Shown: positions 5,399 through 62,200 of the stretch, one piece after another
Layout of the letters: every line of letters begins with the position of its first letter
How positions within the stretch are numbered: the stretch's first letter is position 1
Assembly (NCBI RefSeq): GCF_964355755.1
Contig: NC_092673.1
Location: 8,871,001 to 8,935,000 of the forward strand
Source: Antedon mediterranea
Taxonomy: Eukaryota > Echinodermata > Crinoidea > Comatulida > Antedonidae
Length of the DNA: 64,000 nucleotides
Direction of reading: 5' to 3'
The notes under the pieces: generated by a model
What the model was told of the DNA's origin: nothing
Databases searched by the model: none
What the model saw: only the letters and a program-made list of their open reading frames with translations
Program-made: the position numbers and the translations under genes

Positions 5399-6008
5399 GT
5401 AAGTATATAGCCAATACAATTGTTAAATTATTCTGAATGTCTTAGTAAAGAATATGAAATACAATGGATATAGCTTTGACTGGGATAGTAAAAGATAAAA
5501 TACAATCATTTGTATATTTCCTTTTCAACTTTTTAAAATGAATTAAAATTCTCACCTCACTATTTATTGACATGTAATAATATCTGTATTTCATTTATTT
5601 GAATTAAGTAGAATAAAATATGAAACATAAATTAGAAAAACGATATATTTCAAGTGTCGATAACAGTATTTTCAGTGCTGTTCCGAATGTTTTATCACAG
5701 AGCTAGCTTTATTTTAACAGGTTGTGTAAAAGTGCTTATTAGTAATTATTGTTATACTGAGGTGTTACTATATTTCAATCGCAGTTGTTCCAAGGGCAGT
5801 ATGATAAGCATGGAACCCTAATTAAGGAAACACCGACTTTAGGGCTGCTAACCTGGGAGCACAATGTTAAGCCTTTGAGCTAATATAGGTTTAGTACGGA
5901 AATACTGTTTGAGCCATCCGATTTATTGTTTTCACAGAAGTCAACTCTCAGGATTTCGTCGGATAGCTGTGTAATGAACGGTGTGAAAACTGAAAGTAGG
6001 AACCGAAA

Positions 6009-13733: not shown

Positions 13734-15990
13734 TTAATAGGCAATAGGCCGTACCTTCATTTCAGTGGCTTTCAATGAATAAAAAATTCGACCACTAGAA
13801 GAGGCACTGCTTCCACCCTTCCATTCAATGCCATCATCTCTAAGGGAAGTGTATCTATCCGTTTGATAATATTTTCCGTTAAGATTACATTCATCACAAG
13901 CCCTAAACCACCAACCACCACTATGTAAAACAGCACAATTTGCTGATGAACTTATGTCGTTGTCCCTGTCGTAGGTTGTAAATTTCTGGTTTTTATGGTA
14001 TGATAATCTATCGGGTGCAGTCCCACTAAGATATAGGTCATAGTTTAACCTATAAAAATCATCTTCACTATGGACATTGAAGTTTGAGTACTTGGCAAAG
14101 CTTTTCGAGTCATGCCAGTCCTCCATATCGATGCGTAGTGTGTAAAGACCCTGTCTTGTCAAGTAATGCATGTAGTCGTTTCCAAGCCAATGTTCTCCCG
14201 TCGTGGCTCCAAAGCCTTCTTTGTAGTTTTGCCAAGTTCGATTGAAGCCAATGGTACCATCCATGCGACGTTGAAATACGGTCCAACCACCACCATCAGA
14301 AAACATATCGCAGTAAACTCGGAACTGACTGTGGTAACCTCTAGGTTGGATCTTGTAGGGTCCGCTTGTTGCTTTAGAATTACGTCGTTTGACATCAGCA
14401 CAGTCGACAGGGATTGGTTCGGAGCACTCTATGATAGGCAATCAAAAATTAGGTTTTAGGATAAATAATAGGCTAAATCTTTTCTATTTTTTATGCAACT
14501 TGTTTGTTGGCCTATTATTTTAACATAGCGTTAGCATGCCGGTGTGCTGAAATACTGAAATCATTTTAATGTCATAATTATATTGTATTGTTATTCTTCG
14601 TACACAAACAAAGTATGCTAATTGCATGATATAGAGTTTCCAACTTCAAAAAACGAAATATAAGAATAATTTATTTTGTTTTGTCAAAAAGGAGAGTGAG
14701 TATAAACTACTTATATAAATATTAAAAGGGCGCTATTTTAAAATATTATATTATAAAATAAAAATATACTAATGGCATTTCCTGAAAATGTAAACCTCAT
14801 CTACTTAACGATATTAAAAATAATCGTTAAATTAACCACAAATAATTTTAAGACATTTTCGGTCAAGCACAGTGTTGTTATTTTTCTAGGAAATAACCTC
14901 GTTGTAATAATAGGGGGACTTCTAATGGGTTTCTAGTTTAATTGATGATAAAGACGTTTTTATTATGATGTTTTCTCTATTGTAGAAGAAAGGTTAATAG
15001 CGACACAATAAGCACGAATTCGGTCACGAACCTGATCCTCAAACGGTGCAATTGATATGTCTTAAAAGGGAAATAACAAGTGATTAACATGTTTAAGCAG
15101 GAAAACAGATCGCAATAAAAATGATAAAACAATGATCAGATACAATTTAGTTTATTTCTGAAAAAGTAATTTACTTTTTTTTGTTCACTTCATTGTGCTG
15201 AAATAAGCTAAAAACAGTTTCAAATCCAAGACATTCGTCATAAAAAAAATGACGAGAAACAACAAGAAAAAGGAAAGAGTAGATATATTAATTTTACATT
15301 TTTGTTTTTCCAAAAGTGAAAACAAAAATAACTAATAGGCCTAACTAAATAAATAATACCTGATACCTGTGGGCGATATGTTATAAAATTATGGTAAAAA
15401 GTGAACATTTTTGGCATCCAGTTGTTATAAAATTATGGTAAAAAGTGAACATTTTTGGCATCCAGTTGTTATAAAATTATGGTAAAAAGTGAACATTTTT
15501 GGCATCCAGTTCACAGCTCATTCACAACCGATCATTCCAAGTCTAGACTTTTCCCGAGAAGTCTGAATTTAATTTTTCTTCTTCTGTTAGTCTGCCAGCC
15601 GGCGTTTCAATTTTTATCTTGAAAATATTCTAGATTCGAGCTCAAGTATTATTAAGTCTAGAACTTAAAACTACATCTACTACTACATATCAACTTTGCT
15701 TATTGTTTCTGAAATCACGGTAAAATAAGATAATGTGGGGCCTACTTACCGTTAACACTTTGCAAACTGTCATGTGTGACGATTTTTTGCGCATCGCTAA
15801 GTATGCCACAATCGCAGGCTTTTTCTGATGCTGTTAGCAACGTACGTACAGATTCTAATTCTTTTAGCATTGCGTCACAAGACCCGTCAACAGTAGCACA
15901 TTCTGCAGCGGTTGGTTTATCTTGATTTACAACATTTGCAATAGCATATCCAACAACAGCAAAAAATAACAATGCACTTGTATATGCCAT
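13734..15990 (-). CDS. Gene C: secreted fibrinogen-related protein (ficolin/FREP-like)
   Basis: Two exons on the minus strand: 15990-15750 (start ATG at 15990) and 14428-13734 (stop 13736-13734), joined in phase 1 with a GTAAGT donor and a CATAG acceptor. The product is 311 aa. The N-terminal exon gives a signal peptide (MAYTSALLFFAVVGYAIA) and a short region with several Cys and a possible short helix (LKELESVRTLLTASEKAC) that may oligomerise. The FReD is encoded without introns and looks intact: YCDMFSDGGGWTVFQRR, GEHWLGNDYMHYLT, the calcium-site run YDRDND and GGWWFRACDECNLNGKYY. The calcium site distinguishes it from genes A and B. It probably binds acetylated sugars outside the cell, as ficolins and tachylectins do; this is inferred from family. 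An in-frame ATG at 16008 could add six residues; I prefer 15990 because the signal peptide then starts cleanly. Confidence 0.85.
15381..15512 (+). repeat. Tandem triplication of a 44-bp unit
   Basis: Three essentially identical 44-bp copies start at 15381, 15425 and 15469, each beginning TTATAAAATTATGG and ending GGCATCCAGTTG or a close variant. They lie in the gene C intron. The near-identity implies a recent origin. Confidence 0.9.
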
Positions 15991-40100: not shown

Positions 40101-43100
40101 TAAAAGAAGTAAACAAATGAAAGAGGAGCTTCAAAATAAGAGAGGAGTAATCTGTTGCAAAGATTAAAATTCACAACGATCTGATAATTTATTCAAATTT
40201 CCAGAGGATATAATCTATAAAACGACATTAAAACTGGGAATTACAGAATCTATAATTAAAAATTAATTTTTTTTTCTCACAACACAACTAGAACTATATA
40301 AAACATTAAGAATTTTTCTGACCAATGAGTTTCAAATCAAATAATCAAAGAAAATAAAATGTTTTTACTAATATACCATGTTTTTTTTAAATAAAAATGC
40401 CTCTGTTTCTCGCAACACTGCTTGTAGATTTTAAATTTACCCCAGTATTTTATTTTAGAAATCAATTATTAAACATTAGAACTACCTATTTGTAATAAAT
40501 CAGCTAAAAAAATACACCACTTTGGGCGTTATGGTGAAGTAAAGTTTAGTTGCATTGAACAATTTAAAAAAAGTGAAAAACACCCCTTTTTAAATAAATG
40601 GTATCTCCCAAAGTATGAAATAAAAAAAAATAAAAAATTTGAAACAGGTACACAATGCATTGTTATTATGCATACACTAATTTTTTTTTTTAATTAAATG
40701 AACAACACAAAAATATCGTTCATCAAAGTAGTACCAATATCCATTTTAAAAAACCTTAAAAAGGGACAAAATTTGTCAAAAACACAAATTTGGCCGTTGC
40801 CATGGAAATATACGTGTGAAATAAAAAATACTTCATATTTGATTTCTCTCAACACATATATAGCCATGTGCAAAATTTGAAAGAAATCCATTTTTTTGAG
40901 TCTGCCACTCTTTTTGATATTTCTTTGATTCTTACAGACAATGGCTCTTAAATAGTCATTAAACCACTCTGGGTAACTATGCATAAAATGCCGGTAATAT
41001 TAATATGGATTAACATTATATTAAGCAGTGTAATTAAATGCAACCAATGTCAGTCCCATGTTACTGAATAGGGAGCTCCTGATTGTGATGAACTTACCAG
41101 GTTAGTTCAATTGATTTGTCATTTGTCATTGCCTGGACCTAGAAACTATGAAAACTGTGAACAATGAATTCCATGATGTTGGTCGTCACAAATCAAAAGA
41201 GCAGTAATAACAGATAAAGAAGAAATTATCCGTAACACGGAAATGGATTGCTTTAAGCTTTGCAGTTTAAAAGTGTTGTGTATTGTACATTTTTATAATA
41301 ATTTAATTGATGTGTTAAGTGACAAGTACTTGATTAAAGACTGTTACATTTGTTTACTAATATTATTATAGTAGTAGTATTAATAGTACCATCGATTTAT
41401 CTTTTTAAGGGCTCATCCACAATTCTCATCCAGCTTCCAGATTCTTCACTCAATTGTCCTCTAAACTCATTCTCAGTTCATTTCATTTGTGGTTGCCCAG
41501 CAACAAAACATCTTCATTACCTGCAAACACCAGAGTTGACAATAAGAGAGTTTATACAGGGTGACAAAAGAGATGATAAAGATCTTCCAATCTTACAAAG
41601 TCTCCCGGTAAAAACCATCATTCTATATTATTAAAGCAAATATCCACATTTAGATAGAATTGTCTTTAACACTTTGACTGCCAAACACGAAGATCTTCGT
41701 GTTTGGAAACACAACGCTTGACTGCCAAACACGAAGATCTTCGTGTTCCGGTAGATAGGTTAATTATTGGTATATACTATAAATATGGACACTGTGTTCG
41801 GTCTGGACCGTCAATATTTTACTATTTGACAGTAACTAATCTGATTACGAACGACTGTCAAAATGGTACCTGTCGAAATAACATACACCGCGCATCACAG
41901 TAGCGCGTAGAGCGATTGCTTGGCGCATTGTGTATCGGTCGCGCGCTAGCTATGCCGCCGAAGCATTACAAATAGTCAGGTGGCTTAGCAACAACTTTCA
42001 GGATTAACGTTACCGGTTTTTGTGGATTGGCATGTTTGTTTGCTATCTGAATAAAAAATAATGGAGTCATTTTCAATATGAAGTAATGAATTTTATTATT
42101 GTATGTATACCCTAATTGTTTTGGTGTTTCACTGTAAGTGACCGAGTTTCACGCAACAAACTTGTTTAGAAATGGTATGAATATTATCATCAGTTTACTA
42201 GATTTATGATTTATAAAATGTAATACATTTTTCGATAGTGATAACTTGTTTTTATAGGCCTATCGGTGCCGTGTAAGTAACTTTTTGTTGTTTGTTGATC
42301 TCACCGGGCGATATTTTCATATTGTGATGTCTTGCACAAAATCGCGAATATCTTGACTTTTTGCGCGAAACTACGAAAAACTCAAAAAGTGGGTTACCAT
42401 TATTTTACTATTACGATTTACATATTGCGATTTGAAAATCGTTCTTGGTACCATTGTAAAGCTAAAATCTTTATGATTATTTTAGTCTAAATTACATATA
42501 AATCAGATCACATACATAGTTTCAATCGGCTTTAATAAAAACATCAAATTGGTCTAAAAACGCTGGCGGTGGCAGTTTCTAACTGGAAAAACCTCTGGCA
42601 GTCAAAGTGTTAAGTGACATCATCTTACTATTTAATGACCATGCTGTAAACAAGTTATTTTACAGGTTATCCTTGTATTCTGTAATTGTAAACAATCTTC
42701 AATACAGTCAAATACTAGTGTTTACTTATATTTTTATTCTAATAGTAACTTTAATACTATTATAATAATTTTCAGGCTAATTACCGTCCACCATCTGTCA
42801 AAGGTGTTGCAATTCCATTGAGTGACAACATATACAATGCTGACCCATCACTCCCTATAAAAAGATCCAAGTACCAGATCTCTAAGGTAATTATGACTGT
42901 CACTAAAAGTTTATGAATTTATACAGATATGAATTTTATTTACTGTATTAACACTTTCTAAATCCTGAATTTGTGAGTGAACACAGACTTAAATCACATT
43001 TATTCACAGTAACATCACCAGTGATATATATAACTACTTTTTCCTCAGAACTAGATAAATAAATAATATTTTGACATAATTATATGAAATGGCAGTTAAA

Positions 43101-44735
43101 ACAATTACAAACTATTAGCTTTACTACAATAATGAATATGGTTTTCTACAAGTTTGTTTATGATTGTAGGAATCTGGTTCATTTAAGCAATGTACCAATG
43201 CTAGAGACCATGCTGACTGTAACTGTACTGATGAGTTGAAGTTTTCATCATTGGTTCGAAATTCTGATTGTAAAGATAAGGTACTTAATAATAATCATTC
43301 TCGGTTTGATTGCCAGGTCTATATATAGAGCAATAGTTCTTTTAATTCATCATATCTTTTAAGTGTTGTTTGCACAATCGAAATGTTTTGTTCTGTGATG
43401 AAATTTAATCAAACATGATATAAATCTGGCAGTGATCTGACATCGTCAAGATCATTGTGGTTTAGTGATTAATTCGCAGACTCCACAATCTATTCATAGA
43501 ACTATAATATAATTGTACACTGTTACTTTTTATTTAGTCGTCTCCTTTAAATCTGAAGCAGGTTTTAATGCACTGAGTTCAGTTTGTTTACATGATGGCT
43601 TTGATGTTTCACCTTTAAACCCAATCTATTTTGGTGCACCATGCAAAAAGCATAATTGAATAAATATCTCACTTCACAAATGATATTTTCTTAAGGTGTA
43701 TCGATTGCTATATCCAGGTCGTTTAGAACCAAGATTTGTTATCCGACAGAATGATCAGGATGATATTGCTTTGAATGGCTCATATGCTGTCTCCCTTACA
43801 GAGATCAATAACAGAAACGATTTCACATTTAAAAGTGAGTAATACATTTTACTAATAATAATAACTACTGCTGAAATTAAGTATAATATTTTATTTAGTG
43901 AATGTTGTGGCTTCATAGGAGCATTATTTAGCAATTATTAATACAAACTTTGAATGTCTGAATTATATTTTATCATCATAGATGTACCTACTCCAAGTTT
44001 GAAAGCCATGAAAGTTGACCCCAATATTCAAGATAGTGAAACTTTTCTCACACCAGATACAATAAAAATTACATTACTGGTATGAATATACAATTTTTCA
44101 TACATTTTATGACTGGCTCTATATTTTTGATAAATTGTTTGCAGCGTACCATAGTCTTCCTGATTGTAGTGGCTAAACATTATTTTGTATGATTCGTTTT
44201 TTTAAAGGGTTCTGAGCTATATCATTTCAAGGTAACTGTCGTTCATGGCTTCTCGTACTGCCCTCTAGAGGATGAATTTCAGGTACTATACACTGGTTTG
44301 TTCATTGATGAATTTGTATTATATTTTCGGTAAATGTTTTAACATCTCAACATAATATTTATACATAAAATATTTGTAGAGCATAAAATATATGTTTGAC
44401 CAAAAAACAATGCTAACGTTGAACAATCGGCCAATTAATAGTAAAAAACTTCAATTCCCCTCTGATATTATTTTAAACCAGTTTAGTTTAATACTCGGAT
44501 TAGTTTTTGGAAATGGAAAATTATTATTATATTGTGTATTTTATTTTAGGTGTATGTTGATATGGCACCACTGCCTAATCCTATATCACTTGTCATCATT
44601 GTTATGACAAGCATTCTCATTGGTGGAATCATGTTTGCTGTTTACCTTGTTTACCTAAAACATCATTTTACGTATCGACCACGTAAACATGGTTCACAGT
44701 GCTGGCATCCTCACCAAGTAACAAGTACCCATTAA
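19197..44735 (+). CDS. CATSPERB: CatSper sperm calcium-channel auxiliary subunit beta
   Basis: I traced 26 exons joining in phase to 1039 aa: 19197-19266, 21193-21272, 22309-22375, 22550-22639, 24857-25000, 26184-26267, 27725-27846, 28475-28589, 28998-29041, 29906-30040, 30471-30635, 30873-31017, 32368-32519, 32791-32930, 33522-33658, 34926-34976, 35555-35731, 35835-35975, 36705-36847, 41410-41607, 42776-42886, 43170-43280, 43696-43834, 43982-44079, 44208-44282, 44550-44735. Exon 1 is a signal peptide. Family landmarks include EAILQWHLGEVL, a Cys-rich head, NYRPPSVKGVAIPLSDNIYN, CNCTDELKFSS, GSELYHFKVTVVHGFSYC and YVDMAPLP just before the single transmembrane helix (LVIIVMTSILIGGIMFAVYLVY). 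In vertebrates this large extracellular subunit caps the flagellar CatSper channel. Vertebrate orthologues are somewhat longer; the gap lies between exons 1 and 2, where an exon near 20845-20940 may be missing. The last 20 or so residues come from a satellite unit. Confidence 0.92.
19285..19530 (+). repeat. TAGGCCTA cluster and AAAGTCGCCCCA minisatellite in CATSPERB intron 1
   Basis: 19285-19378 is dense in TAGGCCTA/CTAGCTAGG palindromes. 19382-19472 holds several copies of a unit of about 16 bp, roughly (T/C)(G/A)(C/T)AAAGTCGCCCCA, one variant reading AAAGTTGCCCCA. Both are low-complexity repeats without coding potential. Confidence 0.7.
20499..20800 (-). mobile_element. Penelope-like retroelement RT fragment
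   Basis: An open minus-strand stretch of about 95 aa contains SYDVVSLFTNVPLDETI, the hallmark motif of Penelope-like element reverse transcriptases, preceded by KLAKWLDDKLKPL and FLDLSKDNHS. It is truncated at both ends, with no endonuclease or catalytic YADD segment visible, so it is a dead fragment in CATSPERB intron 1. Confidence 0.8.
20845..20940 (+). other. Candidate extra N-terminal exon of CATSPERB
   Basis: An acceptor-like ATTTTAG precedes an open stretch ending GAT before a good donor, GTAAGG (20941). In the frame continuing from exon 1 it reads ETRWKNSSAQRNYFIDYETE and DIVARCNV, mildly like the family's N-terminal strand, but it hits TGA just before the donor. In another frame it is open to the donor but does not match the flanking phases. 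Either an additional exon is involved or this is not an exon. Confidence 0.25.
21250..21670 (+). repeat. Degenerate tandem repeat with CTTTATTTAGATGGCT units overlapping CATSPERB exon 2
   Basis: Units related to CTTTATTTAGATGGCT, then AGTACGG, CTAACCTA, TTATCAAAGATTTTAAC recur near 21250, 21321, 21515, 21577 and 21645; the best-preserved neighbours are about 65-70 bp apart. The first copy overlaps the 3' end of the coding exon 21193-21272 (TNKLYLDGLFL). Either the exon end seeded the array or the exon recruited a repeat. Confidence 0.55.
22860..24777 (+). mobile_element. Decayed LINE: ORF1-like then endonuclease fragment
   Basis: Between CATSPERB exons at 22,639 and 24,857 there is a dead non-LTR element. 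Around 23,380-23,505 the plus strand reads RPIIITFTSYIELDPRCF then VKKRALKQCGYSITENLT, typical of LINE ORF1 proteins. Around 24,515-24,777 it reads ISETWLKYDHP and then, after a frame break, ESIFVEMIKPNTN and IIIGTIYRAPSLDP, typical of an apurinic-type endonuclease. The order ORF1 then EN matches a LINE on the plus strand. Many stops and frameshifts separate the pieces, and no reverse transcriptase remains. Confidence 0.65.
27965..28319 (+). mobile_element. tRNA-derived SINE, near full length
   Basis: A tRNA-like head contains an A box TGGCCGAGCGGT (27976-27987) and a B box GGTTCGAGGCC (28042-28052), resembling a Leu/Ser-type tRNA. A unique body follows (GTAGGGGGTTACCCCGGTGA and TCAGGGGGATTACCACCTAT). 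The element ends TTGGCCACAGTGCCTAAAGA with an (AAAATAAA)n tail. It sits in a CATSPERB intron in sense orientation. Another copy of the body and tail is at 52,771-52,915 (minus). The 3' tail matches the LINE end at 5350-5398. The head cannot fold as a normal tRNA over its full length, so it is not a tRNA gene. Confidence 0.88.
29350..29440 (+). repeat. Dispersed repeat, copy 1 (partner 32,050-32,145)
   Basis: Shares CTATAAAATGATC, CCTGACTGTTAAATA-like sequence, AGTCCTATGCC and AAATTCATGAGGA in the same order with 32,050-32,145. Both are in CATSPERB introns. The family is not recognised. Confidence 0.6.
31199..31290 (-). repeat. Dispersed repeat in inverted orientation to 35,107-35,195
   Basis: Reverse complement reads ATTATTAGAATCGACTTATT, then GCAATAGGACCATATAG, matching ATTATTAGAATCGACTTGTT and GCAATAGGTCCATATAG at 35,107-35,195. 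The copies lie 3.9 kb apart in different CATSPERB introns. Confidence 0.6.
31750..31926. mobile_element. Small MITE-like inverted-repeat element
   Basis: TTTAAAGATGACCTGAAGTG at the left and the inverse of TTTTAAAGGTGACCTGAACT at the right bound about 175 bp of AT-rich sequence. The terminal repeats are about 17 bp with one or two mismatches. It lies in the CATSPERB intron 31,018-32,367 and has no coding content. Confidence 0.5.
32050..32145 (+). repeat. Dispersed repeat, copy 2 (partner 29,350-29,440)
   Basis: Second copy of the sequence described at 29,350-29,440, with ACTGTTAAATAGTCCTATGC and AAATTCATGAGGACAAAAT. Same orientation. Confidence 0.6.
33129..33400 (+). repeat. 117-bp tandem dimer of a CCAACGTTGG-type repeat
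   Basis: A unit starting ATGAC(A/G)TT(C/T)TACCGACGTTGC begins at 33129 and again at 33246 (period 117 bp). The following segment ends with CCAATGTTGGCCCAACGTTT. GTTGGCCCAACGT-type palindromes recur in the unit, so the open frame across it is an artefact of the repeat. Confidence 0.6.
33767..34553. mobile_element. Inverted-repeat element with GGGCCTGTTTCTGCTGC ends
   Basis: GGGCCTGTTTCTGCTGC at the left (33767) is mirrored by GCAGCAGAAACAGAGCCC at the right (to about 34553). The subterminal regions are full of TACGGTATTTT and its inverse AAAATACGGTA. This gives a non-autonomous element of about 787 bp able to fold back, in the CATSPERB intron 33,659-34,925. Related fragments AGCAGCAGAAACACAGC (49,718) and ATAGAAACAGGCCCTA (34,795) occur elsewhere. 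It carries a minus-strand open frame, listed separately. Confidence 0.6.
33962..34327 (-). pseudogene. ORF fragment resembling a transposon-associated Myb/SANT-like DNA-binding protein
   Basis: A 121-aa minus-strand frame inside the inverted-repeat element at 33,767-34,553. The part KMSGQLKGNKKDNHIYKDIS KKIAQEYRID resembles the helix-turn-helix of Myb/SANT-like proteins encoded by Harbinger-type transposons, and a Ser/Gly-rich turn (NSGRERITCPP) follows. No transposase is present. It may be captured or residual coding sequence of the parent transposon. The assignment is weak. Confidence 0.3.
37890..39545 (+). repeat. Diverged tandem array inside the long-arm element
   Basis: A unit with TGACCTTGTGAAA.GGTCATTTG, GAGGTCAA, and (TTACC)ATAGTAACTGTTTCTATG..TAACTAAGG recurs near 37,915, 38,220, 38,540, 38,700 and 39,390, about 160-310 bp apart. 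Copies are clearly diverged. The array is interrupted by the small element at 38,815-39,340. Confidence 0.5.
38815..39340. mobile_element. MITE-like element with TA-CAGT...GGCCACC ends
   Basis: The left end TACAGTAAGTGGCCACC and the right end GGTGGCCGCTGTA form imperfect inverted termini around about 525 bp. The interior repeats GTGGCCGCTTACGGG, GGCCGCTTAC and GCTTACGGTAAGC. TA at both borders and a CAG start fit a Tc1/mariner-pogo type MITE. It is nested in the array at 37,890-39,545. Confidence 0.45.
40026..40046 (+). repeat. Homopolymer run of 21 G
   Basis: An uninterrupted run of 21 G within an otherwise AT-rich window. The flanks 39,735-40,080 are also G-rich on this strand (GGGGGAGGGGGTGGGATGGA and similar). 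This could form G-quadruplexes and may be a source of assembly error. Confidence 0.95.
41670..42609. mobile_element. piggyBac-type MITE flanked by TTAA
   Basis: CACTTTGACTGCCA at the left (41,670) and its exact inverse TGGCAGTCAAAGTG at the right (ending 42,609) are immediately flanked by TTAA on both sides (41,666-41,669 and 42,610-42,613), the piggyBac target-site signature. The element is 940 bp, lies in the CATSPERB intron 41,608-42,775 and encodes no transposase. Near its left end ACTGCCAAACACGAAGATCT is duplicated, and AACACGAAGATCTTCGTGTT is a perfect palindrome. Confidence 0.85.
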
Positions 44736-47004
44736 CTAGTATCGACCACGTAAACATGGTTCACAGTGCTGGCATCCTCATCAAGTAACAAGTACCCATT
44801 AACTAGTATCGACCACGTAAACATGGTTCACAGTGCTGGCATCCTCATCAAGTAACAAGTACCCATTAACTAGTATCGACCACGTAAACATGGTTCACAG
44901 TGCTGGAATCCTCATCAAGTAACAAGTACCCATTAACTAGTATCGACCACGTAAACATGGTTTACAGTGCTGGCATCCTCATCAAGTAACAAGTACCCAT
45001 TAACTAGTATCGACCACGTAAACATGGTTCACAGTGCTGGCATCCTCATCAAGTAACAAGTACCCATTAACTAGTATCGACCAAATGGTTCACAGTGCTG
45101 GCATCCTCATCAAGTAACAAGTACCCATTAACTAGTATCGACCACGTAAACATGGTTCACAGTGCGGGCATCCTCACCAAGTAACAAGTACCCATTAACT
45201 AGTATCGACCACGTAAACATGGTTCACAGTGCTGGCATCCTCATCAAGTAACAAGTACCCATTAACTAGTATCGACCACGTAAACATGGTTCACAGTGCT
45301 GGCATCCTCATCAAGTAACAAGTACCCATTAACTAGTATCGACCACGTAAACATGGTTCACAGTGCTGGCATCCTCATCAAGTAACAAGTACCCATTAAC
45401 TAGTATCGACCACGTAAACATGGTTCACAGTGCTGGAATCCTCATCAAGTAACAAGTACCCATTAACTAGTATCGACCACGTAAACATGGTTTACAGTGC
45501 TGGCATCCTCATCAAGTAACAAGTACCCATTAACTAGTATCGACCACGTAAACATGGTTCACAGTGCTGGCATCCTCATCAAGTAACAAGTACCCATTAA
45601 CTAGTATCGACCAAATGGTTCACAGTGCTGGCATCCTCATCAAGTAACAAGTACCCATTAACTAGTATCGACCACGTAAACATGGTTCACAGTGCTGGCA
45701 TCCTCATCAAGTAACAAGTACCCATTAACTAGTATCGACCACGTAAACATGGTTCACAGTGCTGGCATCCTCATCAAGTAACAAGTACCTATTAACTAGT
45801 ATCGACCACGTAAACATGGTTCACAGTGCTGGCATCCTCATTAAGTAACAAGTACCCATTAACTAGTATCGACCACGTAAACATGGTTCACAGTGCTGGC
45901 ATCCTCATCAAGTAACAAGTACCCATTAACTAGTATCGACCACGTAAACATGGTTCACAGTGCTGGCATCCTCACCAAGTAACAAGTACCCATTAACTAG
46001 TATCGACCACGTAAACATGGTTCACAGTGCTGGCATCCTCATCAAGTAACAAGTACCCATTAACTAGTATCGACCACGTAAACATGGTTCACAGTGCTGG
46101 CATCCTCACCAAGTAACAAGTACCCATTAACTAGTATCGACCACGTAAACATGGTTCACAGTGCTGGCATCCTTATCAAGTAACAAGTACCCATTAACTA
46201 GTATCGACCACGTAAACATGGTTCACAGTGCTGGCATCCTCATCAAGTAACAAGTACCCATTAACTAGTATCGACCACGTAAACATGGTTCACAGTGCGG
46301 GCATCCTCACCAAGTAACAAGTACCCATTAACTAGTATCGACCACGTAAACATGGTTCACAGTGCTGGCATCCTCATTAAGTAACAAGTACCCATTAACT
46401 AGTATCAACCACGTAAACATGGTTCACAGTGCTGGCATCCTCATCAAGTAACAAGTACCCATTAACTAGTATCGACCACGTAAACATGGTTCACAGTGCT
46501 GGCATCCTCATCAAGTAACAAGTACCCATTAACTAGTATCGACCACGTAAACATGGTTCACAGTGCTGGAATCCTCATCAAGTAACAAGTACCCATTAAC
46601 TAGTATCGACCACCTAAACATGGTTCACAGTGCTGGCATCCTCATCAAGTAACAAGTACCCATTAACTAGTATCGACCACGTAAACATGGTTCACAGTGC
46701 TGGCATCCTCATCAAGTAACAAGTACCTATTAACTAGTATCGACCACGTAAACATGGTTCACAGTGCTGGCATCCTCATCAAGTAACAAGTACCCATTAA
46801 CTAGTATCGACCACATAAACATGGTTCACAGTGCTGGCATCCTCATCAAGTAACAAGTACCCATTAACTAGTATCGACCACGTAAACATGGTTCACAGTG
46901 CTGGCATCCTTATCAAGTAACAAGTACCCATTAACTAGTATCGACCACGTAAACATGGTTCACAGTGCTGGCATCCTCATCAAGTAACAAGTACCTATTA
47001 ACTA
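44673..47004 (+). repeat. 67-bp satellite, about 35 tandem copies, starting inside the last CATSPERB exon
   Basis: The unit begins TATCGACCACGTAAACATGG and continues through TTCACAGTGCTGGCATCCTC to AAGTACCCATTAACTAG. Copies are more than 95% alike over 2.3 kb. Two copies carry the same 6-bp deletion (ATCGACCAAATGG, at about 45,078 and 45,608). The variant series GGAATCC, GTTTACAG, standard, deleted appears twice, 530 bp apart (44,905 and 45,435), which indicates an eight-unit higher-order repeat. The first unit is translated as the CATSPERB C-terminus (YRPRKHGSQCWHPHQVTSTH), and the stop codon lies within it. Confidence 0.95.
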
Positions 47005-47011
47005 AATCTAG

Positions 47012-47296
47012 TTTGACATTCTTAAATTAAATTGTTTGACAAGCATTCTTATTAGTGAAATCATGTTTGCTGTTCACCTGGTTTACCTTAAAGCCTGTTT
47101 TCCACGGCGTATTCGTTCGCACGAATCAAAACCATCAGCTTATATGCATGTGTGTTCCTATTTCCATCCCCAGAAAATAAATTCGCAACCAAATCATAAC
47201 TCAAGAAGCATGCTTTACTTCAGGAGACCTGCTAACATCCTTTACAAATACCCAGTGAATGCCATGCCATGTTTTGTATTTGAACCAAAAAAATAA
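47012..47296 (+). pseudogene. Duplicate CATSPERB terminal exon beyond the satellite (transmembrane segment plus different tail)
   Basis: 47,033-47,103 is a copy of 44,602-44,672: TTGACAAGCATTCTTATTAG against ATGACAAGCATTCTCATTGG, and so on through the transmembrane-helix codons (TSILISEIMFAVHLVYLK). The frame is open from a TCTAG acceptor-like site at 47,008-47,011 to TAA at 47,296 (94 aa). It is phase 0, so it could join the exon ending at 44,282. After the helix the tail is not the satellite-encoded one: it reads CFPRRIRSHESKPSAYMHV and ends MPCFVFEPKK. There is no pyrimidine tract before the acceptor-like site. It may be a relic of the ancestral terminal exon or an alternative last exon. 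Confidence 0.6.
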
Positions 47297-47297
47297 A
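47292..47297 (+). promoter_or_regulatory. Candidate poly(A) signal overlapping the duplicate terminal exon stop
   Basis: AATAAA overlaps the TAA at 47,294-47,296. I see no closer hexamer after the CATSPERB stop at 44,735 within the satellite, so transcripts may read through the array to this site. Confidence 0.45.
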
Positions 47298-47299
47298 GA

Positions 47300-49745
47300 T
47301 TCATATTCTGTCTATAAGGTGAACATCTAGACAAATCTTGTATATAAATAACATATTTAACTTCCTGATTCCTGTTAAAAATGTTAATGTTGATTAAAAT
47401 ATTTGTCGATATAAATATATATATATATATATATATATGCACTTGATGTGCATACAATTGTTAATAGTTTGATTGTTGAGCTATTATTAGCCATTGTTGT
47501 TTTATATACTATACTGTACTGTAAGTTATACTGTGCATAGTACTAGTACAGTAGGTGGTCTATTCAACTGATCTATCTACCATTTACCCATTGTAAATAC
47601 TTCTATTACTAGATTAAGCTAGTTTTAAATAAACTCATAGAAAATGTTAATAACAAATTGTAAAAATCCAATTATTTTCTAAAACTAAATAGTATTACAA
47701 AAATCTATGTTTTTATATCAGAGTATTCTTGGCTTTCTCATGAGCATCTGTCACAATTGCTACTGACTCTAATTTATGAACTGGTGTTTCATCTCTAATA
47801 ACCGAAAGTCTGTCAGATTAAGCATATTTTTTTCTAGGTCTGATAAAGACTGACAGATAAGCCATGGTTGGAGGAAGATCAGCTTTAATCCAAAACGATG
47901 GTAGAAGGCTATTATCAAAAAAACAAAGAAATCAAACATTTAAACACTTATCAACATTGAGGCTCGAAAATTACACAAAAAACAGGTTGTTGGTTAATGA
48001 ATCCAAGCAATCTCAAGAAAGAAGGAACAAACTTTCTTTCAAATTAAGAGAAGACTTATTTATTGCAATCGAACAAAAATCTATGAAAAAAACATTGTTG
48101 GTACTAATCCCTTTGGATTCTTATACTTTTTAGGAAAACATACAATAGCAAAATTACATTACAGTAGATTCAGGACGACCAAATTAATCCTTCCACAGCT
48201 CATGTCATATTTAAAAGAAGCACGGGAAATTGAATATTTGCATTTCATCAATATTACAGTGAACTTGGAATAAGTTTTACTGGTCTCCACCAAAAGCAAT
48301 TTTGTGTCCAAAATCACATTGCCATTATATTGATAAGTTTTTAGTCTTTTTGCCATTCTCTACTGGTTGAGTTAAAAAAAGAAAAGGCGAAGAAGCTTTT
48401 TATACATCTAACATCTCTTTATTATTATGATTTTAGTTATTCCAATATAAATTATTTGATAGTGGTAGTAGAATAATTCATCAAACTATACATATGACCC
48501 AAATGGCGTATTCCTAAACATTGTAAATTTTTGAAGGCAAAACACCTGTATCGAACTAAACAACAACTCTGAAAAGTGAGCAAAAATTTAAAAAAACATA
48601 ATTTAATTCGATTGAGTCACGTTATGTGTATCAATAACAATGACTACCATAGCCACAATCAAGGCAAGACCATGTTTGAAAAAACAACATATGAACCACT
48701 CATGGGAAAATAGACCTGTTAAAAAATGTATGTGATTGAAAAACTATGACAAAGAACAGAGGAAAGTCGGACACAATTGGTAAAACTGTATTCGGAATTT
48801 TAAAAAAAGTTATCCAACGATACCAAACAGTATGGTATTTGGTCTTTATTGGTCACGTGACTTGTTTTATTGCTAAATAACTATGACTTTTTTATATTGG
48901 TGTAATGGAATAATATGATCAGTATCAAATTTTCTTTCTTTTTCAGTGTAGGCTACAATATGGCTGCTTTACTCTGACCAAATTTTGTGCAACCCTTTCA
49001 TTCTGTTTTTGATACCCTAATGAACAACTGTTCAGGTTTCAGAATGTTATCACAATTTGAAGGATTGGTTTCCTTAACACACCTACTATTATTTAGTAAC
49101 TCCTATTAGGCCTCTTATCCATAGCCCAATCGGAATTACACTACGTCTTTTACTGCAACTTGGCTGAATAACAATATTACCAATCTAACCAACGTATACT
49201 TTATAGTGATGCCTCTGATTCTAAACACTGCTTACAATTATATTGAATCAATTTAAAAATCTTAATGAAAAACACTTTATTTTCCTCTCGTACACCTAGG
49301 CTTCCAGTGAGCAATGGTCTTTTGATATTCACTAATAACGCAAACTTGCGCTAAATATTTACATAATCCATCTGAAAAGGCTAATCACTTCAAAAAATCG
49401 TTTTCCCAACATAAAAAATGATACCAACTGCACATGGAAAATATATATCGTTGAGCTTGTGCACATTTTGTGTTCATAATCAGTGTACCATATCCCGCAT
49501 AAATGGCTCAGCCTATCGGTCATTCAATCTAAATTTTTTGGATTGCATATCGGAGATTAGCTACTTAAATATTTTACAGTCATACCACCTTCAGAGATTC
49601 AGCTTTTTTTCCACTAAATAGATTCAGTATTTTTAGAACTAGAAACGGAACATAAAATTGAAATTATGGGAAAGAATAGGGTTTATAAAATTACGTTATT
49701 TTGAGTGTATGCATTAGCAGCAGAAACACAGCATATCACATGCTT
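47300..49745. other. Gene-poor stretch downstream of CATSPERB
   Basis: AT-rich sequence. The only notable open frame is 47,864-48,133 (+, 89 aa, starting MVGGRSALIQNDGRRLLSKK). It is basic and Gln/Lys-rich and starts at GCCATGG, a good initiation context. I recognise no family. A possible donor (TTG|GTACTA) lies near its end but no following exon was found. It could be a lone exon or chance. Confidence 0.3.
47417..47439 (+). repeat. (TA)n microsatellite
   Basis: About eleven to twelve uninterrupted TA dinucleotides. Confidence 0.9.
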
Positions 49746-49749
49746 TATA

Positions 49750-52530
49750 GCAATTGTTTTATTTTATTTATTTCTTTATTCTGATACAAAATCAATAGGA
49801 TAAAAACACAAAAAGTACCGAGACGGCAAACTTATTTCCATTGTGGTCCTAAACAAATATAACAGAATAAACAAGGAAAACCACAATAACTTAAACATAA
49901 TACACAAACAAATAGCAAATTAAATTTCTCTTAATCTAAGAATTTCACAAAAATAACTTTTTGATCTCTGTTTAAATAATTGTAATGAAGAGGAGCTTTG
50001 AACAAAATAGGGGAGTGAATTCCATAACTGAATGCTTGTTATTAAGAAAGTTGACCTGTTGTGAGTTCCTATGACTGGAATTTGGATCGAAATGCTGTCT
50101 CTAGCAAATCTTGTATTGTGATTGTGACGTTGTCTCGTCAGGGTAATTGTATCCAGGTAAGTTGGAGCACTTTTGTTAATTATTTTATACATAATACATA
50201 GTTTCCTCACTTGTACTCTTAGGTCAACTGGCAACCAATTTAAGTTTACAAACTCATGTATACCTATATGAGATCGTGGTCCTAGGTTCGAAATGCACCT
50301 AATAATTTTGTTTTGAGACGTCTGTAGCCTATTTTTAATATATTTATTTGTACACGAGTACCATACACAGCACCCATAGTCATAATGACATTGTGTCAGA
50401 GAAGATGCAATTAATTTAAGAGCATATTTAGTAATATATTTTTTATTTCTATTAAGAAATTTAAGTATACAATGAATTTTATTGATTACTTTCATACCTG
50501 TAGCTGTACCAGTCAGGTTCTGGTCAAGATCAATTCCAAGGTATGTGATTGAAGATTTAGCAGTTATGTTTTTATTATTACAGGTAATTTTCATTTCTGA
50601 CTGTTTTCTACACATGGTTTTTGTACCAAATAAAATTGACTCCGTCTTACCAAAATGAAGGGATAATCTATTGTCAGAAAGCCACAGATTCAACGCTTGC
50701 AATTCATTACTTAGTCTGTTTTCAATATACTCTCGGTCTTTATTTGTGACCAAAAGGGCTGCATCGTCTGCATATAGCAACAACTCACAACCAACGGCCG
50801 ATTCCATGTCGTTGACATATAGCAAAAATAGTAAGGGACCCAGAATAGATCCCTGGGGTACTCCACATTTGACGTCAAGAAATGTTGATTTAGTACCTTT
50901 TATGTCAACAACCTGGGATCTACCGTGGAGGTATGATTGCATCCATGACAGAGATAGACTAGTAAAACCCATGGCCTTTAATTTATACAATAATATGTCG
51001 TGGTCTACTGTGTCGAACGCCTTTTGAAGGTCAATTATTATCATACCAGTCATTTTCCCTTTATCCCATCCATTTCTAACAGAATCCGATAGATGTATTA
51101 GACATGTTTCTGTAGAAAATGAAGGTCTAAAACCTGATTGATAGGTATAAAGAAGTGATTGGTCGTTTAAGTAACTCATTAATTGATTATACATAATACG
51201 TTCTATAATTTTAGACACTGCAGATAGAATTGAAACGGGTCTATAGTTTCCAGCATATAATCGATCTTTCTTTTTGTAAATAGGCACTACCTTAGCAGAT
51301 TTCCAATCAGAAGGGATATAACCGGTTGAAATAGATATATTTATAATATGGCTCAGTGGATGTAAGATAGCCAGAGCCCCATCTTTGAAAAATCTGGCAG
51401 GTACGGAATCTAAACCCGCACCTTTCTTACTATTTAAGTTGTTTATTATCGTTAGTACGGTTTGTTCATTTACTTCTTTAAAGGCAAATACACCTTTTTT
51501 ATCTGCATAGTAATGTTTAACGTGGTTTTCATTGTAAGTATTAGATGAAGGAGGGAGTTTGTTGACTAAATTTTTAGGAGTATTAATGAAAAAGGAATTT
51601 AAATAGTCAGCAATCGAGCTTTTGTCATAAATTATTTTATCTTCACATTTTAGAGCAATGTTTTCAGATTTATTTTCTGTTCCGGTACCTAAACTTGTTA
51701 AAACATTCCATAATTTTTTGGGGTTATTTTTATTTTCATTTAGTTTGTCCGAAAAATAAGATGACTTAGCTCTTTTTATTTTATATTTTACAGAATTTCT
51801 TAACTTTTTAAAGACAGTAAATATGTGCTCATTACGAGTTCTCTTAAATTTAGCTAAGCATTTATCACGTTTAATGATCAGATCTCTAATTTCTGATGTG
51901 AACCATGGTTTGGAACGTTGTTTAATTCTTATTTCTTTTAAAGGAGCAACTTGGTTGATGGCATTCATCATTTTTAGTTTGAACCAGTCCCATGCAGTGC
52001 AGACATTTGTGCAATTTGTGATATCGGACCAATCTAATTCATTTAATTTAGAAGTAAGTAGTTCTGATGAGTATGATTTCATAGATCGTATTTTAATCGT
52101 CTTATGCCTCTTAATCGGGATTTTAACTATCTTTCTGGTGCAGTAAGTTATAAAATGATCACTGACACCGTAAGGGATAACTCCGTATTGGAAAATGTTA
52201 AGAGGTTCGGATGAGAAAATAAGATCTATGATGGTAGAGGTAGTGCAAGTAATACGTGTTGGGTCCTTAATAAGTTGGATGAGATTAAACATATTACAAA
52301 ATTGGGACACCCATTTATTTTTACTTAAATTATTAGATGATACATCTACATTAAAGTCACCTAAAATAATAACTTCTTGACCTTGTAAAATATCTCCACA
52401 GATTGTCTCAAGTGAGGTAAAAAACGATCGCTGCTTTTCAGGTCGGTAACAGGTTCCGATTAGAATAGGTTTGGTTTTAGGTAATAATATATTTATCCAT
52501 AAAGATTCAATATCATTTATGTGCTACAAA
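49750..52530 (-). mobile_element. CR1/L2-like LINE, 5'-truncated, with a long intact ORF2 segment
   Basis: The minus strand carries an uninterrupted frame from about 52,525 to 49,920. It contains the end of the endonuclease (IESLWINILLPK, ILIGTCYRPEKQ, VIILGDFNVDVSSNN), then reverse transcriptase blocks: WKSAKVVPIYKKKD, NYRPVSILSAVSKIIERIM, IIDLQKAFDTVDHDILL, GVPQGSILGPLLFLLYVND and the catalytic LLYADDAALL (about residue 512 counted from the ATG at 52,310). It ends with the LINE C-terminal region (NRLQTSQNKIIRCI, NHNTRFARDS). The 3' tail runs to about 49,750 and ends in ATAAAGAAATAAATAAAATA-type repeats. The first part of the endonuclease and any ORF1 are missing. The absence of stops over 2.6 kb indicates a young copy. 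No target-site duplication was found. Confidence 0.92.
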
Positions 52531-56288: not shown

Positions 56289-59200
56289 ATGGAGTTGTTT
56301 AAGTCAGGTTTTTCGGGAGCAGGTAAACCTAAGGAGTTAGTAACTTCTCATAAAGTATCGCTATTAGTTCTTATTAATGCGTATTCTGAAAGTGATCAAG
56401 AAGGGCTGGAAGCCAGTCAGTCATTACTTGCAACTGATTCTTCAGAGTGTAAAAAGAAATGGAATATTCAAACAAGCAGAGAATTTGCAAAGTGCATGTT
56501 AAAATGGATTCAGGTTTGCCATTTGTTTGTAGATACTGTATATAATATAGAACTAGGCCTAGCCTAGCTACAGTAGCCTCTAAGAGCCCAGAGGCCTGGG
56601 CTAGCCTAGGTAGGCCCTACTACATAAAAATAAAACTCATTTTGATTTATTTTAAATGTTTGTTTTTCAATTCATGTATTTCTTCAATCCAACCTAGCCT
56701 AGGGTAGGCCTTGGCAATGGCTAAAATAGGCCTATAGTATAGGTCATGATGGTCTTTATATGCATTGTTAGTAGGTGTTATAAAATACATAATATATAGG
56801 CCTAGGCCTAAGCTATTTATAATAAATTTATTACATAGGCCTACTACAATTTTGGAAAGTTATGGAAGGAAAGTAGTTTATCGAAATAATAATACAGTAA
56901 GAAAATGATCTAAACTAAAGTTCAGTGCATTCCATTACATTTTTCGTGCGTGTATCGAGTGAAGTCAAATTGTCTCGGGACAAATAAAATATTGAAATTC
57001 TTAAAAGAGGTTTAATAGATAAGCATTATTTTTTATTTACTAATTTTTTATTCTATTCAACAATATTTTACGAGGGTGGTCCATCCAGTCTAAACATGTA
57101 ATTGTAACAATATAAATCAAATTAAAATAACTTTCATTGATAAAGATAAAATAAAGCACAACATTTTTAAGAATAAAAAATAAATGAATCTCAGAAGAAA
57201 AGATAGAAAAAAGGAAGCAACTATAACAAGAAGATGTTTCTTGAGCAAATATTTAAAGGAAGAGTAAGATGAAGCAAGTAAGATATCTAAAGGAAGAAAA
57301 TTCACTTTCTTACGACTGGTAATTTTAAGTAGTTGGTAATATTAATAAAATATGCAATTTTTATATTTGAATTATTATTTGCCTGCCATCTTCTGTCATT
57401 AAAAATTGCGTTAATCTATAGAATATTAAATTATGCATTTGATGTATGTTGTTAGCGTGGCCGGTGTTCACCCATACAACAATCGTGTTTTTAATATATG
57501 GCTAAGCAGTGGTTTCTTCATAAATCTCCTTAATTATCGAGGTGATTATATTTAAATTGTAGTGCCTGGTGATTGGCTAGTGGTTATGTCATCCACATCA
57601 CATCCAATCACCGGGTCTAATTGAATGAAAACAGCAATCCCTGATCCGGGATTGGCTGGCTATGTATAGTTGCGATTCGTTACCTAGCGGTCGTTTTGAA
57701 AAGTACACGCAGGGCAAACTTAATCACGAACAAACGAAGTACCTATTATTTTTAATATATGGCTAAGCAGTGGTTTCTTCATAAATCTCCTTAATTATCG
57801 AGGTGATTATATTTAAATTGTAGTGCCTGGTGATTGGCTAGTGGTTATGTCATCCACATCACATCCAATCACCGGGTCTAATTGAATGAAAACAGCGATC
57901 CCTGATCCGGGATTGGCTGGCTATGTATAGTTGCGATTCGTTACCTAGCGGTCGTTTTGAAAAGTACACGCAGGGCAAACTTAATCACGAACAAACGAAG
58001 TACCTATTATTATTCACACAAGAAGTAAGACAACGGTGAGTATATAGATCATGATTACACGTTGTATCTACTACACTTAAGATTAGCCTAGGCCTACCTA
58101 GGCAGTATCAATGTCGGCAAATCATATGGTTTACTAGTAATCCTAGAAGGCCTAGGCCTAGTATCCTTGCTGATTTTGTAATTTTACATGTATGTAGGCT
58201 GAGACAACAAATAAATAGTTATTGTCTCAGATGTAGGGCTACTACAGGTCATAAAATGCTACTTTAATGTCATAAAAACATTAGCGTAGATCAATCGCGG
58301 CAGAAACCTATACTAGTTCTAATTATAGCATCTACAATTCTAAGCCAATAACAAAATAGTATTGTTTTTATCTGGTATATTGATGAAGTAGGCCTACACT
58401 AGGGTCTTCACAATAACATACAATGTAATTTAATAACTAGTGGCGTGAGGCAGAGGCCTGAAGCCACTTGTTTAGGAAACCTAAGTGGCCCTCCAAGTTT
58501 CAAAGATCGAGGCCTCGGACGTTTTTAACATTTTCACATTTTATGCCTGTTCCTCTGGGCACTGCTCATGGGCCCCAAGCTTCGGTTTAGCCAGTGAGCG
58601 CACATAGCTGTTACGCCTCTGATTATATACTGTTCAAATATGTATGAATACATACAGTGCAACAAAGAACGCGCGAAAGAAACGTAGTCAACAAGTTTAA
58701 AATGTCGTTTCTCATGTGCAGTAAACAATATATTAGGCACGCAACCGTTTCGTTGTTACCATGCGGTTAATTAAACTGTAACATTGTGGGCGGTCCGCGG
58801 TCTGTCGGCGAGAGTCAAGGAACCCTTGATCTCACGTCGATGCATATCCTTCTATTCTTTAATCCATGGTTGAATGTGTTAGTGTAATAGATGATGGTAT
58901 GATCATCATACATATCAACATTAATACATTGATCAAAAGAGGTAAGGCAGAAGGGAGGTCATTAATGTAGATAGAGAAGAGAAGGGGTCCTAGGGTAGAT
59001 CCTTGAGGAACACCGGTAGAGCAAAAAAGATAGAGTCTGACCAAAGAGGACTTGTTGGGAGCGACCAGTAAGATAAGAATGAAGCCAAGCGATACTTGAA
59101 GGAGAAAAGCCATAGTTAGTAATAGTAGGGTAGTTATCAAGTAAAATGTTGTGGTTAATTGTGTCGATAGCTTTCTTAAGATCGATGAAAAGCGTGCCAG

Positions 59201-62200
59201 TAAGTAAGTCAAATACCAGATTGAGAATTAGAAATCAAATTAGAAGAATCAAGGTAGGAGTAGATTTGAGAAGAAACAGATTTCTCAATGATTTTAGAAC
59301 AAAGAGGAAAAATGAAAATAGGATGATAGTTGATTGAAAACAGAGAAGTGCCAAGACTAAGATAAGAAGTACAATTATAAGGATCAATCACAGAAGAAAG
59401 GGTAACAGCATTAATTATTAGCAAAGAAGGAGTTAAAAGAGTTAGCAATGGTTTGAACATCAGAGATGTCAATGTCAATGAAAAAAAAAGAAAGCAGGAA
59501 GAGGGTTGGATTTTTTAGAAGGGACAAGTGTATAAAATATGTTTAAATTTCATTCAAGAAAAGCTAATTTGTGTGGGGCGAGATAAACATTTTGTTTTCG
59601 GTACTTTTTAGGAGCTAGATTATTTTTTTTTTTTTGTGCGGATATTTTTTATAAATTTAACAATTTAAAATTTTTTTAGTTTTTTACAGGTCTCGGAAGG
59701 ATGTGTGCCTTTCATAATGGCAATTTTTAAACATTGTTTATTTTTAATATTATTATTAGGAATAACACTATTTATATACATGTACTGTACTGAGTGTAAT
59801 AATATATTCTATAGAAATATACGTCAGTGTCATTTACAGTAATATACAACAAACTACGTAAGAGAAAAATTTATTTTAAAAACAATAATTTTTACAATGT
59901 ACTATTACAATAAAAATTTGATCCAGCCCGTAAAGCCAACGTATCCATTTTTATACTTACCACCTATTTTCCCCCGATTGCATACTGCAGATATTTCAAA
60001 TTTACATATTATTCAATCTAATTTTTATTTCTATTGAATTTATTTCCGTTAAAAAACTTGCACTTTAGTGTGTCACATCTTTGTGTCGTCTTTATTATTG
60101 TGGTATCGCTAAATTATTTCTGAGGTAAACCCAAACACATTCCACCATGAGTTTTCTAGATCTAGTTAGAAAACTCAGATATCTGACTTTTCTAGATCTA
60201 GTTAGAAAACTCAGATATCAAGATCTGAGTTTTCTAGTTCCAAAATGGAACTAGAAAACACAGATCATCAAATGGATCGTTCCATTATTATTAGAGGGTA
60301 GCATATTTGAAATACTACACAGTATAATACGTTTTCTTACTAAATAATAATAATTATTTTAACTTGTAGTAGCAACCTACGACTTAAATCATAAAGAAAT
60401 ACTGTACAGTACACTTTACACCTTTTAAAATGTAGGCTTAGCATTTAGGTCTAGCCTAGCAAAGCAAACTCAATTCAAGGCTCAACGTGTGGGTGGAATC
60501 GCGATGTTTCGCGAAGAGTAGGCCTGGTCCTACTAGAGGTACTAGGTTAGAAGTGGTCAACTCGTACCCAAAATAACTCATACCTATTCTTAACTTGGCT
60601 AACTCGTACCCCAACCAACTCGTACATACATTTTTAAGCCTACATTTTAACGGTAACATGCACTGTATTTTCTTTATGATTTAAGCTGTAGGCCGCTTCT
60701 ACATCTTACAATATTAGTAAGAAAACGTACACAGTAATCAGTTTTAATAATACTCTAGTAGGCCTACTTCAAATGACCTACCTTCTGATTAATAATGGCA
60801 AATGACCTACCAACCAATCATAATGATGATCTGAGTTTTCTAGTTCCATTTTGGAACTAGAAAACCCAGATATTGATATCTGAGTTTTCTAGATCTAGAA
60901 AAGTCAGATCTGAGTTTTCTAGATCTAGAAAACTCAGATATATCTGAGATCTGAGTTTTCTAGATCTGAGTTTTCTAGACACCCTTGTAAAAATCATAGC
61001 CTAGGCTAGTTTGGGACCCAGAAAGGATTTACCTGCACCCTCTAGCAAACTATTTGAACAATGTTTTTTTGCTTCCTTGTATTTGTCGTATTCGATTTAG
61101 ACTTTCACCGTTGAGTACTTCTTTAACGGAGTATTTCTTTAACGGAGTATTTTAAGCATTGAGATTGTTCTTAACAAAAAAGCTTTCGTTGTCAACATTT
61201 TCTATTCGAATGACTTTCTGTTGAGCACAAATTTACAATTCGAATACAAAAAGTACTCAACGAATCTTTACGTTGACAACGAAAGTTCCCAATCGAATAC
61301 AACAATTGATACAATCAATTTTTTGCTGTTGGCAAAAATTGGGATGCTTGGTCAATACAGGGGCCAAAAGGTCAATATGGTAAAAGTTAAAGACTGTTTA
61401 GCTTGGTAACTACTACTGGGTGTATTGGAATATTTTTTGTGACTCAGAAGACCCATATTCTTGCCGCGGAAGCCTGTTGAAGGCGGCATTTCGCGAGTTT
61501 ATGTAATTGGAGATAAACATTTATATTTAAATAATACCGATCTCAATTGTATTATTATAATATCTATATTCAGACGAAGTTAAATTAACTGAAATCAAAA
61601 TGAAACGGCAATGAAAATGGCAAAAATGTATCTAGTGCACCCCATACAAATTAGTGCGACCAAAATAAAGTGTGATAGATATCCAACGTAACCGATATGA
61701 TGAAAAGCATATCTAGTGGCGCTCCATACAAAATACCGAATGTTGATTTTATTGCGACTAAAATTAGTCTCAAACTAAATTAAAACAAATTCCAGGTGCA
61801 TGAAGTTATTTCATCCATTTCAGTGAATTTTTATGAAATTTCTATGCTCGTTCCACAGAGAAATCTCGGTATCTCTTTTTAGCATTAAAATTTGTATTGA
61901 AATTAAATAGTAAACGTCTTTAATTCATAAAACCACCTACAGTAGTATAATAAATTATTTTTCAGAGTTCTGATGTAGATTTGGAAATATTTGTACCTAA
62001 AGTTCAGAGTATTCATGCAGACCTGGCAAATGCTTTATTTAAAAGGTAATTGCACAGTACACCCATTCAGGATAGTTTTTAGGAAGGGAGAGGGAGGGGT
62101 GTTTATTTGTGGAGGTGTTTATTTAGTGGGGAGGGAGAAGGGCACATTTATTTTTTGGGTTTAACATGGTATTGGTAACATGTGTAATCAAATAAATATC

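Follow-up and report, generated by a model that had tools for sequence, protein, structure and literature searches.

A 67-bp minisatellite at the 3' end of CATSPERB in Antedon mediterranea, probably founded by the end of the terminal exon

How can a gene end inside a tandem array, and does the growth of the array alter the protein? In the crinoid Antedon mediterranea, the last exon of the gene coding for the sperm-channel subunit CATSPERB runs into an array of 67-bp units, beyond which a second copy of the transmembrane-coding segment is followed by a longer open frame with a basic tail. The locus was analysed in a stretch of 64 kb (the window; contig NC_092673.1 of assembly GCF_964355755.1, positions 8,871,001 to 8,935,000 of the forward strand), and positions are given within the window. 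It had been proposed in a preliminary description that expansion of the satellite replaced the ancestral cytoplasmic tail of CATSPERB. The analysis reported here favours, with a probability of about two in three, a local minisatellite derived from a 67-bp founder situated at the 3' end of the last exon of CATSPERB.

The identity of the gene was established from the six exons that were mapped, starting at 42776; the earlier exons lie outside the mapped part. Once spliced, the exons from 42776 to 44735 form a single open reading frame down to the terminal stop, with GT-AG introns. The joined exons matched chain 7eeb_E, which we take to be the mouse CATSPERB chain, with an expect value (E) of 3.6e-53, and the Pfam model CATSPERB_C with 252.3 bits (cut-off 27, E 6.4e-75). 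The related model CATSPERD-E_C reached 21.6 bits, under its own cut-off of 27.4. The terminal exon alone scored 26 bits with CATSPERB_C, the score being well over the cut-off once the exons were joined. When the whole assembly was searched with this model, five exon matches were found, four of them above the cut-off and all within the same gene, and no second CATSPERB locus was found. The gene is CATSPERB, with an intact 3' end. Its terminal exon encodes 61 residues, VYVDMAPLPNP...YLKHHFTYRPRKHGSQCWHPHQVTSTH-stop, and the tail residues include HHFTYRPRKHGSQCWHPHQVTSTH. The likeness to CATSPERB comprises the C-terminal domain, the single helix and the short tail in addition to the 7eeb_E match; the differences are that the tail does not align to that of the mouse and that an array comes after the stop. 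The alignment to 7eeb_E ends at residue 217 of 239, just past the helix. Beyond this point there are 22 residues in A. mediterranea and 24 in the mouse chain, so that the tail is of ordinary length.

Tandem Repeats Finder delimited the array to 44672-47004, with a period of 67, 35.0 copies and 97% matches, in agreement with the approximately 35 units counted previously. Cutting the array at the unit starts yielded 33 units of 67 bp and two of 61 bp, with 12 distinct sequences. Over 67 bp, the full-length units differ pairwise by 1.26 bases on average and by 3 at most. A block of 396 bp (44739-45134) recurs without any difference at 45269-45664, 530 bp further on, as expected from recent unequal exchange or block duplication. 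The junctions with both flanks are clean. The assembly searched throughout consists of 354 Mb in 18 contigs. At E up to 0.001 the unit gave 35 matches, all of which fall in the array, as do all 16 matches, up to E 10, of a query made of the tail and two units. The tail peptide gave 36 matches, 35 of which are located here, the other being weak (E 1.93). No other array or copy of the unit was found up to E 10 with the search tool, which passes over very common words and masked stretches; this absence is strong but not absolute evidence. The array does not fit the class of dispersed satellite DNA, the unit matches obtained in this search being confined to this one locus. From its sequence, the array is most likely a single-locus genic minisatellite. 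Predicted RNA folding of the unit was no better than that of shuffled sequences (z of 0.83 for one unit and 0.61 for two).

Features of the CATSPERB 3' end (window positions)
Feature	Position	Strand	Remarks
Five upstream CATSPERB exons	42776-42886, 43170-43280, 43696-43834, 43982-44079, 44208-44282	+	Reading frame maintained across GT-AG introns
Terminal CATSPERB exon, coding part	44550-44735	+	Extracellular end, transmembrane helix, short basic tail, TAA
67-bp minisatellite, 35 units	44672-47004	+	Unit 1 is 44672-44738; units 2-35 lie downstream of the stop
Second, incomplete copy of the transmembrane-coding segment, lacking the exon's extracellular part	47031-47092	+	89% identity to 44598-44660
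Piece of a dispersed MITE-like element comprising its left end and the part next to it	47091-47168	+	Supplies the start of the longer basic tail
Possible further piece of the MITE-like element after an internal deletion	47177-47207	+	nhmmer E 5.4, colinear, 9 bases further on
Candidate poly(A) signal AATAAA of a 3' untranslated region that would contain the array	47292-47297	+	Hexamer scan

As the preliminary description had it, and as translation confirms, the last exon encodes the transmembrane helix and then enters the array, the first unit of which provides the final residues and the stop codon. The exon runs into unit 1 at 44672 and the stop is at 44733-44735. Unit 1 thus comprises the codons of the final 20 residues and the stop, then 3 bases of 3' untranslated region (UTR). 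As read from the sequence, it differs from the consensus by one base, which is silent and in a His codon. When the exon was cut by script to a single unit, the same 61 residues were encoded as with 35 units. As the stop lies inside unit 1 and the one-unit and 35-unit proteins are identical, tandem expansion cannot have replaced the tail, contrary to what had been proposed. Because expansion leaves the protein unchanged, the tail could have been replaced solely through the arrival of the founder, if the founder was foreign. A version without any unit, also generated by script, would end with YLKHHFTI-stop.

The duplication of the transmembrane-coding segment is real. A search of the whole assembly aligned 47031-47092 to 44598-44660 with 89% identity (E 1.4e-13). 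The second copy had been described at 47,033-47,103 with about 80% identity, a range that overshoots by 11 bases into a dispersed repeat. Likewise, a duplication of the terminal exon had been suggested, which holds for the transmembrane segment, but the extracellular part is missing and a remnant of the tail or unit is not significant (see below). To the left of 47031, no homology beyond chance was found when this side was tested alone (1558 of 2000 shuffles were as good), and a gapped extension of the alignment to 47002 is given no weight. The two copies share 50 of 57 bases, and the 7 differences, over 19 codons, are three synonymous and four replacement changes, one of which converts a Gly to a Glu in the downstream helix. 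These counts are too small to tell whether the copy decays neutrally or is under weak constraint, although a charged residue within the helix and the lack of the extracellular part would argue for decay. The frame that passes through the copy is open over 94 amino acids and has no Pfam match. As the window contains 31 stop-to-stop frames of at least 94 amino acids on both strands, this one included, the length of the frame is not evidence of coding, and the downstream copy probably reads as an open frame by chance.

The different, longer basic tail that had been noticed downstream does lie in this frame, but it starts as a repeat resembling a miniature inverted-repeat transposable element (MITE). 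With a 396-bp query from the downstream region, a search of the assembly recovered the query itself, the upstream helix and 19 further stretches, distributed over 18 other loci; all 19 lie between positions 65 and 182 of the query. An nhmmer profile of 17 related MITE-like copies, built without the window sequence, matched the window at 47082-47168 (E 2.6e-11). A further match at 47177-47207 (E 5.4) is at noise level by itself, but colinear with the main one. No match of the profile was listed in the array up to E 10. A related member of the family gave 54 matches in the assembly, obtained from the 40 of 525 first-look candidates that were scored. Among 38 fetched loci (L007-L044), 14 inverted end pairs were found, of which seven span 160-161 bp and five have TA on both sides. 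The family resembles MITEs with TA target sites, a Tc1/mariner-like kind, in being short, present in many copies and provided with inverted ends. The piece in the window differs in that it is a decayed left part, the right end being unrecognisable.

By these matches, the start of the downstream basic tail is MITE-like DNA. The element probably inserted at a TA directly after the copied helix, where the exon homology ends. Since the repeat starts where the exon homology stops, the longer basic tail is not an intact ancestral tail. As a DNA query, 47165-47420 found no match at another locus of the assembly with E up to 1. A possible unit remnant at 47193-47259 was equalled by 108 and 97 of 3000 shuffles, and the window holds places that score better. 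With five scoring schemes, a remnant of tail and unit after the MITE-like stretch was equalled by 59-253 of 2000 shuffles and by 61-310 of 2978 window segments. Since the controls failed, the idea that some of the upstream tail persists in colinear order beyond the MITE-like stretch was rejected as unproven.

Some likeness was nevertheless seen between the two tails. Aligned in register after the helix, they have 5 of 13 residues in common, and 240 and 451 of 20000 shuffles were as good. At the DNA level, 17 of 42 bases agree, which was equalled by 601 of 19100 random 42-mers from the window. The best two of 51 MITE-like copies in the same register scored 12, compared with 16 observed. In a protein search of the assembly, the downstream frame aligned to the upstream exon as far as residue 40, past the helix (E 0.0037). 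The in-register comparison was chosen after the fact, and the likeness, which is weak and suggestive, is taken to be chance seen in hindsight.

From these elements, a sequence of events can be proposed. A partial copy of the transmembrane-coding segment would have arisen downstream, and a MITE-like element would then have inserted at its end. The founder of the array would consist of the final 20 codons and the stop together with 3 bases of 3' UTR; it is probably the gene's own tail, the exon end having been amplified into the 3' UTR. This local origin is favoured because the assembly search revealed no alternative source of the unit and because the tail with unit 1 shows no likeness to the MITE-like family. 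In that comparison 156 of 300 shuffles scored as well, so that the unit is not visibly derived from the family. Growth would have proceeded by tandem duplication and unequal exchange, placing copies 2-35 in what should be 3' UTR. That the array came later than the duplication, as previously thought, is consistent with the units being much closer to one another than the two transmembrane copies are (1.26 differences per 67 bases and 7 per 57, respectively), and for this reason the array would be either young or recently homogenised, and the helix copy and the MITE-like insertion older. Transcription would cross the array and end at a signal near 47026-47292. Between 44736 and 47700, AATAAA or ATTAAA hexamers occur at 47026, 47176, 47292, 47393 and 47628, and none within the array; the third stands as a candidate poly(A) signal. 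Array length may vary between individuals, the data being one assembly.

Several observations weigh against this account. The alignment to the mouse chain stops at residue 217 of 239, and the founder could come from elsewhere. An allele with no unit, ending YLKHHFTI-stop, may leave room for a founder that arrived later. Duplication of the entire exon end should have left part of the unit behind the MITE-like stretch, where no significant trace of it is present. The likeness of the two tails hints at a relation, against a purely MITE-like tail downstream. Finally, the search of the assembly passes over very common words and masked stretches, as noted above.

The first two of these points would also fit a foreign founder, either filler DNA inserted there or the end of a transposon that has since disappeared, that gave CATSPERB a new tail, the array being formed later. 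That the neighbourhood has already taken up a MITE-like insertion goes in the same direction. This origin is nevertheless unlikely, given a unit without any other copy found in 354 Mb up to E 10, the lack of likeness to the local MITE-like family and a tail length that resembles that of the mouse. That a non-ancestral founder both rewrote the cytoplasmic tail of the sperm-channel subunit and seeded a satellite extending the CATSPERB 3' UTR is decidedly unlikely; were it true, a sperm-channel mRNA would carry a 2.3-kb variable array. The array could instead be an assembly artefact, or its length could be wrong, as near-identical units and an exact 396-bp repeat make a sequence prone to collapse or stretching. 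The 12 unit types in a non-trivial order, the two 61-bp units and the clean junctions with both flanks make this quite improbable.

Two other explanations give the downstream copy a role. It could be an alternative terminal exon, with an acceptor near 47012 in phase 0, producing an isoform with a transposon-derived tail. A TAG does end at 47011, the frame is open over 47012-47296 and continues in phase from the preceding exon, whose last codon is complete, and the pyrimidine content before the acceptor (56%) equals that of 3 of 6 real acceptors. However, its T content is 38%, compared with 44-69% in the six real acceptors, and it ranks 35th by pyrimidine content among the 150 AGs in 44736-47400. 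The extracellular part would be lost, the helix would gain a Glu and a His, and no Pfam match was obtained; such an exon is very improbable. Survival of the ancestral tail at 47093-47293, after its replacement by satellite expansion, is barely credible. The transmembrane segment is duplicated, the 94-amino-acid frame passes through the proposed tail, and 5 of 13 residues are common in register, the same stretch being inside the protein alignment with E 0.0037. This reading is largely contradicted by the MITE-like start of the tail; moreover, expansion beyond the stop in unit 1 cannot alter the protein, and frames of this length are common in the window.

The local minisatellite, probably derived from the CATSPERB exon end, is of an ordinary kind. 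Genic minisatellites, or variable number tandem repeats (VNTRs), contain tens of near-identical units, each tens of bases long, at a single locus, and can span coding sequence and the non-coding sequence that follows it. Here, head-to-tail units of such size are found at one locus (67 bp, 35.0 copies, 97% matches), spanning coding and following non-coding DNA and including a duplicated block. The difference is that the unit holds the stop codon, hence only unit 1 is coding. With its genic minisatellite next to a piece of exon into which a transposon has inserted, the locus is a curiosity and not a new kind of thing. It does suggest how coding sequence can become satellite DNA, as part of the founder is the end of an open reading frame; a founder that brings a stop codon of its own allows the gene to bear expansion with the protein unaltered. 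The array would also be a convenient VNTR candidate, placed in the 3' UTR of a sperm gene. As a caution, an open frame following an array should be checked against dispersed repeats before it is called an ancestral tail. In literature searches aimed at the coding-exon origin of minisatellites and at CATSPERB tails, the titles and beginnings of abstracts that were listed contained nothing on this case.

Elsewhere in the window, an 867-amino-acid open frame on the minus strand (49920-52523) with RVT_1 and Exo_endo_phos_2 domains is a retrotransposon of the long interspersed nuclear element type, downstream of CATSPERB. A short frame at 58862-59227, also on the minus strand, has a weak reverse-transcriptase match (E 6.9e-5), under the curated cut-off. 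A frame of 235 amino acids on the minus strand (13737-14441) encodes a fibrinogen C-terminal domain (E 1.3e-68). An open frame of 589 amino acids on the plus strand (6000-7769) starts with a hydrophobic N-terminal stretch and has no Pfam match up to E 1. Other tandem repeats are a 261-bp unit present twice at 57488-58011 with 99% matches, which is a recent tandem duplication, and a 44-bp unit in three copies with 100% matches at 15379-15511. Several small tandem repeats at 60148-60979 have GAGTTTTCT in common, and the unit of the one at 60878-60939 contains the palindrome GAGTTTTCTAGATCTAGAAAACTC.

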